The notes under the pieces were generated by a model. It had not been told where the DNA came from, ran no database searches, and worked only from the letters and a program-made list of their open reading frames with translations. The translations under genes and the position numbers were made by a program. Below, in pieces: positions 49,486 to 52,203 of a stretch of DNA of 52,203 nucleotides (its first letter is position 1; each line of letters opens with the position of its first letter). This DNA comes from Spirochaetaceae bacterium (GTDB lineage Bacteria; Spirochaetota; Spirochaetia; Treponematales; Breznakiellaceae), in contig JAISLT010000035.1 in NCBI GenBank assembly GCA_031277165.1, positions 1 through 52,203 of the forward strand, written 5' to 3'.

Positions 49486-50787
49486 CTAATTTTTGATGAT
49501 CACCGAGACCCTCGCGTTGGGCGAGATGGAAAAGGCTCCGGCGCTGGTAGAGGCGCTAAGGGCAAAGTCAAGGGCGGCCATGGGGTGGAACTGCAGGGTG
49601 CCGCCCAGCCCCACGGAGGGAGCTATGCCGCCCACCTGGGTGATGGCGGTGGAACTTTTGTCGTTGTCCCTGTTGGACGATTCCTTGATGTGGCTGACAG
49701 TAAACTCTGCCCCGGCATAGCCATGGAGGGCAAAAGTACCGGGGACAAACTGGTAGATAAAGCCCAGTTTGGCCTCGGGGATTAGAAAGAAATAGGCGAA
49801 GGTACCCCCCTTAACTTTAACATCGGGATTTTCCGTTTCCTGATCGGTATTGGCCGAACTGTAATAAAATCTCCCCCCGAGGTTCCAGGCCACAGAGAAC
49901 CGTTCGTCAACCTCGTAGGTTCTCTTAAAGCCCAGGGTTACCGTGTTGTTCCACTCCTTCCCCGTCCGGCGGCTGACCGTGTCGTTGAAGCTGTTCTCCT
50001 GGGCCGGATCCGGAAATATGTGGTACTCAAAAACGTTGGTGAAACTAAGCGCCGACTGGGCCGCGCCGTTCCGGGGGAATACGTAGTCCCCCCTAAGCAT
50101 CAGCTGCAGGGGAGCGTAACCGGTCCTGGTGGTTTGGCTATTACCGCCGGCGCCGGTTATTTCCGTTTCCGCCAGGTTAAAGCCGTAGAGGATCCCCGCT
50201 TCCGGTTTTAGGATCCCCGGGCCCAGGTCAAAATTTTTTCCCCAGATAAGGCTTAGGCCAAGTCTGCCGTCCTTCTCCGTTCTTGTTCCGTAGGAGCCCT
50301 CGTTTTCATCCTCGTCGCTGCGGAAATTACTAAGGACCCCAAGCTTAAACCCCCCCACCGGGGTTCCGATAAGGCCGTAGATCCTGTCGGTGACGGTAAA
50401 GCCGGTATCTGATCCCGTACCTGTAGCCGGATCGGCCCTGTCCCCCGCGGCGTTGGTCGTTTCTATTCCGGTGCCGCTTACCAGGCTGCCGGTATAGGAG
50501 AGCCCCAGGTAGATGCCGCCGAAATTTTTAGCAAAGCCCCCGGAGATGTACGGAGCTTCCCCGGCGCCTGTCCCCCCCGCCAGGAAGGCAAAGAATTTGT
50601 CAAATTCCACGTCCTGGTAATCGTTCACGTCCTGGGCATCGTCCATGGTATTACCCCAGAGTCCCCCGGTGGCATTATATTTCATGGACCGGATCGAAGT
50701 GGAAGCAATACTGCCTGCCGTCTGAGCCATAAGTCCGGGGATCAGTAGAGTCCCCAGGGTTATTCCCAAAAAAAACCTTTTCTTCAT
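49486..50787 (-). CDS. Outer-membrane beta-barrel protein
   Basis: From the ATG at 50787 (AAGGA upstream) the product is 433 residues. The frame continues to 51078 inside the FGE gene but that part is not used. A signal peptide (KKRFFLGITLGTLLIPGLMAQ) precedes alternating amphipathic strands rich in Gly and Tyr (NFGGIYLGLSYTGSLVSG, VGGFKLGVLSNFRSDEDE). The C-terminus FSISPNARVSVIIKN is strand-like, though it does not end in phenylalanine. It is probably a surface porin or adhesin. It lies 130 bases downstream of the FGE lipoprotein gene, with a perfect hairpin in between. Confidence 0.75.
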   Translation of the reverse strand: MKKRFFLGITLGTLLIPGLMAQTAGSIASTSIRSMKYNATGGLWGNTMDDAQDVNDYQDVEFDKFFAFLAGGTGAGEAPYISGGFAKNFGGIYLGLSYTGSLVSGTGIETTNAAGDRADPATGTGSDTGFTVTDRIYGLIGTPVGGFKLGVLSNFRSDEDENEGSYGTRTEKDGRLGLSLIWGKNFDLGPGILKPEAGILYGFNLAETEITGAGGNSQTTRTGYAPLQLMLRGDYVFPRNGAAQSALSFTNVFEYHIFPDPAQENSFNDTVSRRTGKEWNNTVTLGFKRTYEVDERFSVAWNLGGRFYYSSANTDQETENPDVKVKGGTFAYFFLIPEAKLGFIYQFVPGTFALHGYAGAEFTVSHIKESSNRDNDKSSTAITQVGGIAPSVGLGGTLQFHPMAALDFALSASTSAGAFSISPNARVSVIIKN

Positions 50788-50847
50788 TGTATATTCCTTC
50801 TTTTTTCCCTTGGCGGGATGGCCGCGGAGCCCCGGTTCAAAGACCTG

Positions 50848-50866
50848 CCCCGGATAACATCCGGGG
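50848..50866. repeat. Hairpin between the FGE lipoprotein and barrel genes
   Basis: CCCCGGAT and ATCCGGGG form a perfect 8-bp stem around AAC. It lies in the 130-base gap. It could reduce read-through into the barrel gene or mark an intercistronic processing site; no T run follows. Confidence 0.5.
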
Positions 50867-50917
50867 GACCGCCGGGTCCGCCCTTTGATGCGGAGGCTTC
50901 CGGGCCGGTAAACAATT

Positions 50918-51853
50918 CTAGGGGCACACCACCCGGAACCCAGTTTGGGTAGAGTAGTTCGTGATGTAATCCGTGGTATAATCTCTGAGAGACCAACCGG
51001 AGTAATTGTAAGGGCTACTCCGTGATTTCCGGATCGGATAATCGTCGTCCTGGCCGTAGTAATCCTGGCACCATTCAAATACGTTTCCGCTCATGTCGTA
51101 GAGCCCCAGGCCGTTGGGGGCCTTGGTTTTAACGGCGGCGGTTTTGTTCCCGCTGTTGTTGGCATACACCGCCACGGCGTCCGCGTCGCCGCTCCCCGCG
51201 TAGGGAAGGGACCACCGGGCGCTTTCCGGGTTTCCCCCCCGGGCCGCGTATTCCCACTGGATTTCCGTGGGCAGCCGGAAGCCGTCGGCGCCGGGGTCGA
51301 TCGCCGCGTTCTCCGCCTTTCCATCTCCGGCGCTGACGCTGCTGTTTTCGCTTTCCTTCAGCACCGCCCCCTCGTACTTGTAGGCCGGCTGCCTTCCGGT
51401 AAGCTCGCTGAACGCGTTACACCACACCACCGCATCCCTCCAGCTCATATTTGTTACCGGCTCCAGCTTGTCCGCCGTGGGGGCCGCCCCGGCCGTACCG
51501 TCATGGCCTTCCCTTCCCGCGGTGGGACTGGAGAAGGTATAGCTATTACTCGCCGCCCAGGTTTTTACCGTGTACCATAACTCGTAGCTTATTTCGGTCT
51601 CGCCGATAAAAAAGAGGGGAACGGTCACCGTTTTATTCCCGATAAAATAGAAGGGCTCGTCGTAATTGTTTGTCCCCGTGACCGTGCCGCCGGGGACGGG
51701 CATCATGGCATAGTCGACCCCCGACGCCGTCACGGTCAGGAAAACGGGCGCGTCGTCCCCCACTCCCGAGGGGTTGCTGCACCCCGCATAGAGTATTCCC
51801 GCCGTCAGGCAGACGGCGAAAACCATTTGCCGTACCAATGTACGTTTCTTCAT
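50918..51853 (-). CDS. Lipoprotein with FGE-sulfatase (C-type-lectin-like) fold
   Basis: From the ATG at 51853 (AGGAGT eight bases upstream) the product is 311 residues. A signal peptide ends in a lipobox-like LYAGC (C25). The FGE-sulfatase/SUMF1 pattern follows: MMPVPGGTVTGT, IGETEISYELWYTV, PVTNMSWRDAVVWCNAFSEL, FRLPTEIQWEYAARGG, GLYDMSGNVFEWCQDYY and the end GFRVV. Catalytic sulfatase activation is unlikely in a lipoprotein. Between EWCQDYY and GFRVV, where most relatives have RGGSW...CR..R, the sequence is unusual (YNYSGWSLRDYTTDYITNYS). In Treponema denticola the related TvpA varies in this position by a retroelement. Here no reverse transcriptase or template repeat is in the window. Confidence 0.8.
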   Translation of the reverse strand: MKKRTLVRQMVFAVCLTAGILYAGCSNPSGVGDDAPVFLTVTASGVDYAMMPVPGGTVTGTNNYDEPFYFIGNKTVTVPLFFIGETEISYELWYTVKTWAASNSYTFSSPTAGREGHDGTAGAAPTADKLEPVTNMSWRDAVVWCNAFSELTGRQPAYKYEGAVLKESENSSVSAGDGKAENAAIDPGADGFRLPTEIQWEYAARGGNPESARWSLPYAGSGDADAVAVYANNSGNKTAAVKTKAPNGLGLYDMSGNVFEWCQDYYGQDDDYPIRKSRSSPYNYSGWSLRDYTTDYITNYSTQTGFRVVCP

Positions 51854-51980
51854 AGAACACACTCCTTACTGTTGGATTTTATGGGCTTAGCCCTATAGGA
51901 ACGGTGTTGATGGGTCCGCGCAGATCTACAGTCCCCGGTCCGGGGTTGTGGGGGGCGCGGAATTTTTGGGAAGACGGAAA

Positions 51981-52003
51981 AAGAAACAGCCCCCTCCGGG
52001 GGC
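51981..52003 (-). terminator. Terminator-like hairpin in the leader
   Basis: On the minus strand GCCCCC and GGGGGC enclose GGA (52003-51989), followed by TGTTTCTTTTTCC. It lies between the candidate promoter and the lipoprotein start, so it could attenuate the operon. The tail is T-rich but interrupted. Confidence 0.45.
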
Positions 52004-52097
52004 AGAAACAGCGGGAAGACAGCGCTGCCGGCGAGGGATGAGATACCGTATATAGTGCCCTTCCGGGGCTTTTTGAAATTTTCTACGCTATATATAT

Positions 52098-52117
52098 GGG
52101 GGGGGGGGGGGGGGGGG
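52098..52117. repeat. 20-base poly-G tract
   Basis: Twenty consecutive G residues on the plus strand (poly-C toward the lipoprotein gene) end next to TATATATA. Such tracts change length by slippage. In Treponema pallidum poly-G tracts upstream of tpr genes set promoter activity. The exact count in this sequence could be affected by sequencing error. Confidence 0.85.
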
Positions 52118-52203
52118 AATTTAGAAAAACAAGGGGACCCGGTTTGTAAAACACAGGTTTTAAAAACAAGCAAAAAAATTGTATTTAAAACGCAAAATAA
52201 TTT

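Follow-up and report, generated by a model that had tools for sequence, protein, structure and literature searches.

The tract and the operon downstream of it

Is the 20-base homopolymer near the end of this contig a switch for surface-protein expression and, if so, which genes would it control? The stretch of DNA analysed here (the window) is the entire contig C63, 52,203 bases long, of G000, a 2.48-Mb draft MAG, 82% complete, from an uncultured Treponema-type spirochaete. The tract lies at 52098-52117 and reads G20 on the plus strand and C20 on the minus strand, the coding strand of a leftward operon. No other run of G or C in the window is longer than 9 bases, and extrapolation from the window's run-length distribution gives an expectation of 3e-5 runs of at least 20 per window. 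The G20 tract is real and is flush with TATATATAT at 52089-52097, as the earlier note had stated. A promoter-type contingency locus would have, ahead of a gene, a homopolymer far longer than chance allows; G20 is such a run and a candidate slippage switch.

The contig ends only 86 bases past the tract. These terminal bases (52118-52203, no strand) are 27% GC, with 43% of them in homopolymers of at least 4, and found no convincing match other than themselves in G000 or in its congeners G001 and G002. Because other contig-terminal tails after tracts look alike, we treated the bases past the tract as unreliable.

On the other side of the tract, the first gene of the operon (50918-51853, minus strand) encodes a lipoprotein of 311 amino acids with the lipobox LYAGC and an FGE-sulfatase domain (SUMF1-like, C-type-lectin-like; PF03781, E 3.7e-29), and its ATG is 244 bases downstream of the tract. 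The gene at 49486-50787 on the same strand encodes a 433-amino-acid signal-peptide protein, a putative outer-membrane beta-barrel with 60% identity to a protein of JAISBN010000002.1 (L146). This second protein has no Pfam match, and its AlphaFold model (three sequences) was strand-rich with a pLDDT of 32 and was not used for a fold search. The pairing of a lipoprotein with an outer-membrane barrel proposed earlier is thus borne out for the lipoprotein and for the signal peptide of its partner, but not for the barrel fold itself. The lipobox, the FGE domain and the signal peptide are predicted features of surface components. In G001 and G002 the barrel was absent or marginal only, and therefore no ortholog comparison of the tract at the window operon could be made in these congeners.

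A promoter, TTTCAA-18-TATATA, had been placed about 20 bases from the tract, and a leader terminator had been proposed as a second switch. Both hexamers are present on the minus strand (TTTCAA at 52078-52073 and TATATA at 52054-52049, with an 18-base spacer, 19 bases from the tract) and may form a secondary promoter (52049-52078), but they give only 7 of 12 matches to the sigma-70 consensus, and a scan of 51600-52203 for sigma-70 promoters with at least 9 of 12 matches found none. The leader does contain a terminator-like pattern, a GC-rich hairpin at 51989-52003 on the minus strand with the imperfect T tail TGTTTCTTTT; however, it folds no better than its shuffles (z -0.5), and we rejected the hairpin as a second switch because its folding energy is not unusual. 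Neither the proposed promoter nor the leader-terminator switch is supported beyond chance.

Long tracts upstream of lipoprotein genes in related genomes

A pattern search identified 17 tracts of at least 11 bases in G000, mostly 15-24 long, and runs of at least 14, of which about 0.9 would be expected in its 2.48 Mb, were observed at least 10 times. Such tracts are numerous in most genomes of G000's family and few in most genomes of sister families. For eight intergenic G000 tracts of at least 14, the gene on the C side is resolved: a lipoprotein in six cases (the window and contigs C67, C28, C27, C55 and C112), a sugar ABC permease in one and an epimerase-methyltransferase pair in one. In G046, a genome assembled as a single contig of 3,855,671 bases, three of the four long tracts likewise have a lipoprotein downstream on their C side, and the tracts are therefore not merely short-read artefacts. 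Seven contigs of G000 (C3, C11, C55, C63, C67, C104 and C112) have ends that coincide with G/C tracts, so that assemblies in this family seem to break at them.

The layout of the window operon recurs at homologs of both of its genes. The 60%-identical barrel of JAISBN010000002.1 (Treponema sp. MAG Gx481_bin22) has a C24 tract 169 nt upstream in the same orientation, a distant barrel homolog on G013:C77 has C15 at 82 nt upstream, and at the locus of another distant homolog, on G042:C50, C21 lies 123 nt upstream of the first gene. An FGE lipoprotein paralog on G000:C67 has C24-GTATTATATAGCGTAG 110 nt upstream, and in another genus (G021:C36) the N-terminal coding frame of an FGE lipoprotein contains C16-TATATATAGCGTA. 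The gene order of FGE protein, R1 element (described below) and barrel is also found in G110. Two permeases from different genera, 95% identical over 318 residues, have tract, TATAG box and gene arranged alike, with C21 in one and C18 in the other. No other direct sign that tract length changes was seen.

Tracts were also found in other settings. A glycan-type operon on G000:C103 (L084) has two tracts, at 1560-1574 and 2718-2734; a C17 run lies upstream of the epimerase, and a C15 run is found where the methyltransferase frame begins. On G000:C11 (L076, 7870-7889), G20 stands on the coding strand within the frame of a response regulator beside a sensor kinase, and this two-component system is possibly phase-variable. 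On G013:C71 (L071, 3803-3816), G14 falls in the part of a lipoprotein-like frame that encodes the signal peptide; a barrel homolog follows just downstream, and the G14 frame is apparently out of frame in the present assembly.

A TATAG box next to the tracts

Five bases downstream of the C tract in the window is a -10-like element, TATAGCGTAG, at 52083-52092 on the minus strand, which recurs elsewhere as C_n-N0-7-TATAG. The same ten letters follow the tract on C67, and TATAGCGTA follows that on G021:C36. Counted by genome, C12-N0-7-TATAG occurs in 43 of the 150 genomes of G000's family and its backward control in 21. Part of the TATAG signal could be due to composition, because TATA is enriched on both sides of the tracts (10 and 11 of 45), and the 34 aligned TATAG cases were in part selected by the motif itself. 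In 50 of 99 tracts the dinucleotide TA stands immediately before the C run, compared with a background of 8%; unlike many of its relatives, the window tract has no TA there, in a flank that is unreliable. A second conserved sequence, GATAGGTTTACYARG, stands directly after the C run in three genera (twice in G014, on G000:C112 and in G046; L206, L207, L086 and L102).

A structured leader RNA

We also found a structured RNA element, termed R1, at 50821-50900 on the minus strand, in the gap between the lipoprotein and barrel genes, just ahead of the start codon of the latter; the tract stands at the operon's head. The R1 segment closely resembles the leader that precedes the L146 barrel (L146 177-256). 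A covariance model built from six copies had matches in 43 of the 150 genomes and 27 of the 57 genera of the family. In most of the 32 copies inspected, R1 is positioned 20-40 bases upstream of a start codon, and the gene that follows usually encodes a lipoprotein or another signal-peptide protein. Three parts make up the fold: an interrupted outer stem, a GGAC-GUCC hairpin, and an apical hairpin in which a covarying pair closes a mostly constant GUU triloop. Of 22 pairs, 20 have changes on both sides. Cells with double changes number 114, compared with 31 in shuffles, and 94.7% of cells are paired, compared with 77.3% in shuffles; these counts lean toward the model because the alignment was fitted to it. 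The covariation signal was lost when the partners were slid. These compensatory base changes support the fold, as expected of a structured cis-acting leader. Rfam gave no match overlapping R1, either at gathering or at E up to 1.

R1 and the tracts tend to occur together. Among the copies with enough upstream sequence, 14 of 29 have a poly-C run of at least 12 or a CT repeat of at least 8 units within 450 bases upstream, compared with 1 of 142 control windows taken at these loci, and all 14 repeats read C on the coding strand. Three loci (L194, L244 and L245) have the CT repeat in place of poly-C. R1 was an unexpected by-product of the analysis and is a concrete new candidate cis-regulatory element, the more novel part of our findings than the tract.

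A putative contingency-locus switch

The tract probably belongs to a system that phase-varies surface proteins, and we lean towards regarding it as a contingency-locus switch for the leftward lipoprotein-barrel operon. A candidate phase-variable surface operon, as the earlier note had it, is the best-supported reading: tract orientation and gene class recur in the family, orthologous permeases differ as C21 and C18, and the barrel of L146 has its own C24. In the most economical version, the tract would cover the -35 and spacer region of a promoter, an arrangement known from opc and porA of Neisseria and from tp0126 of T. pallidum (PMC7864442). Slipped-strand mispairing there would lengthen or shorten C20 immediately upstream of the TATAG -10-like box, altering the distance of this box to upstream promoter determinants, and single cells would make much, little or no operon mRNA. 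In this scheme we infer where transcription starts, that the tract slips in a living population and that its length affects expression.

The direction of the tract bears on whether it belongs instead to a rightward gene lost past the contig end, next to a plus-strand -10 (GCTATATATAT). On the plus strand, CTATATATAT adjoins the G run; many tracts of G012 are followed by TATAAT-like boxes on the G strand; and two genomes (L006 and L007) have TTGACA-ATARCAC-G13-TATAAT, with G13 making up most of the promoter spacer. A gene past the contig end could also share the region with the operon, which, together with the motif inside a coding frame at G021:C36, speaks against a promoter switch. Yet in the eight resolved cases of G000 a gene start is reached in the C direction, whereas in the G direction it is often missing or comes with its own promoter; the barrel and FGE homologs have their tracts in the same C orientation, and so do the repeats upstream of R1, 14 of 14. 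The leftward operon is favoured over this unseen gene because its homologs repeat the tract layout, and we consider the rightward alternative unlikely. The tract may otherwise act at translation, since frame PPPPHIYSVENF extends from it to an ATGA overlap with the lipoprotein start, and frameshifts in this 107-aa leader frame (51850-52173) would alter coupled translation. Tracts do occur within coding frames in relatives, as the C16 of the G021:C36 FGE lipoprotein (PPPPPIYSV) and the G14 in the signal-peptide frame of the G013:C71 lipoprotein show, so that coding and promoter placements both exist. In the window, however, the lipoprotein gene comes with an RBS and ATG of its own; the leader ORF lacks an RBS and extends partly into the doubtful tail; and the tract of most relatives precedes, by 60-370 nt, a gene that has its own start. 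These points make a translational switch at this locus less likely still.

That the run was made by two-colour short-read poly-G or by a chimeric contig end would fit the position of 7 of the 17-18 G000 tracts within 100 bases of a contig end, the artefactual look of the C71 run at the start of contig C11, and the AT- and homopolymer-rich 86-base tail with no convincing match elsewhere. We find an assembly artefact improbable, given that tracts at other loci and in other genera match the flank C20-ATATATATAGCGTAG, that internal tracts and the single-contig genome G046 show real runs, and that long homopolymers are expected to break short-read assemblies. The abundance of tracts throughout the family could even point to neutral runs with no regulatory role in a genome tolerating long G/C runs, but the strong placement bias, in one orientation and upstream of lipoprotein/OMP genes and R1 leaders, makes this very improbable.

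Returning to the promoter switch for the leftward operon, the wider pattern, at the level of sequence comparison, suggests that these runs turn surface proteins on and off at random throughout this group of related spirochaetes, often together with a folded RNA leader. There is an even chance, in our judgement, that the family has a standard two-part module for a large set of lipoproteins and OMPs: a hypermutable poly-C (or CT) promoter repeat, often ending at TATAG, followed by the three-stem R1 leader with its conserved GUU triloop some 25-30 bases ahead of the start codon, combining random switching with RNA-level control on the same transcripts. Promoter-repeat phase variation is usually discussed for pathogens. 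If our reading is true, a family-wide system would exist in spirochaetes that look like gut symbionts, as we infer, and this would point to random surface switching being of use to non-pathogens too, perhaps against phages, hosts or neighbours. In the literature searched, we found no report of phase variation in termite-gut Treponema.

Comparison with known systems

The TvpA-type FGE/C-type-lectin lipoproteins of Treponema denticola resemble the window gene in being lipoproteins with an FGE-sulfatase domain. The window gene differs in having no reverse transcriptase or template repeat in cis; reverse transcriptase was found only on G000:C29, where the variable end of the lipoprotein had no match, and we rejected a diversity-generating retroelement acting on the window lipoprotein. 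The locus on that contig (L205, G000:C29:54500-58319) includes an FGE-domain variable protein, a reverse transcriptase and a VR/TR pair of 139 bases with 14 of 14 mismatches at template A, obtained with a pairwise aligner while blastn self-alignment gave no match, and is likely a diversity-generating retroelement.

Promoter repeats have been described in other bacteria. In Helicobacter pylori, the length of a promoter repeat tunes the adhesin gene sabA as a rheostat (PMC4081817). The window tract is alike in being a putative promoter repeat, without homology to that of sabA. The sabA repeat and its position in the promoter differ from the window tract.

Treponema pallidum, of a sister family in the same order, has poly-G promoters at tprE/G/J, tprL and tp0126; the coding-strand poly-G of tpr genes reaches up to the transcription start site, and the tp0126 tract lies between -35 and -10 (PMC7864442). 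The tpr analogy drawn in the earlier note is a loose one. It holds in kind, for a G/C homopolymer upstream of surface-protein genes. It fails in orientation and promoter layout: the coding strand of the window operon carries poly-C rather than poly-G, and the TATAG box comes after the tract. In addition, the tprL tract is 7-11 bases against 20 here, and the window proteins have no demonstrated Tpr or OmpW homology.

Homopolymers also drive promoter phase variation in Neisseria meningitidis, with poly-C at opc and poly-G at porA; the opc run lies over the -35 region upstream of the -10 and controls an outer-membrane protein (PMC7864442). Having a homopolymer in the putative promoter region, poly-C followed by TATAG, the window is closer to opc and porA than to tpr. 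The tracts of this family differ from the neisserial ones in their great length (14-24), in standing mostly before lipoproteins and in being accompanied by a TATAG box and, in many cases, a structured leader RNA.
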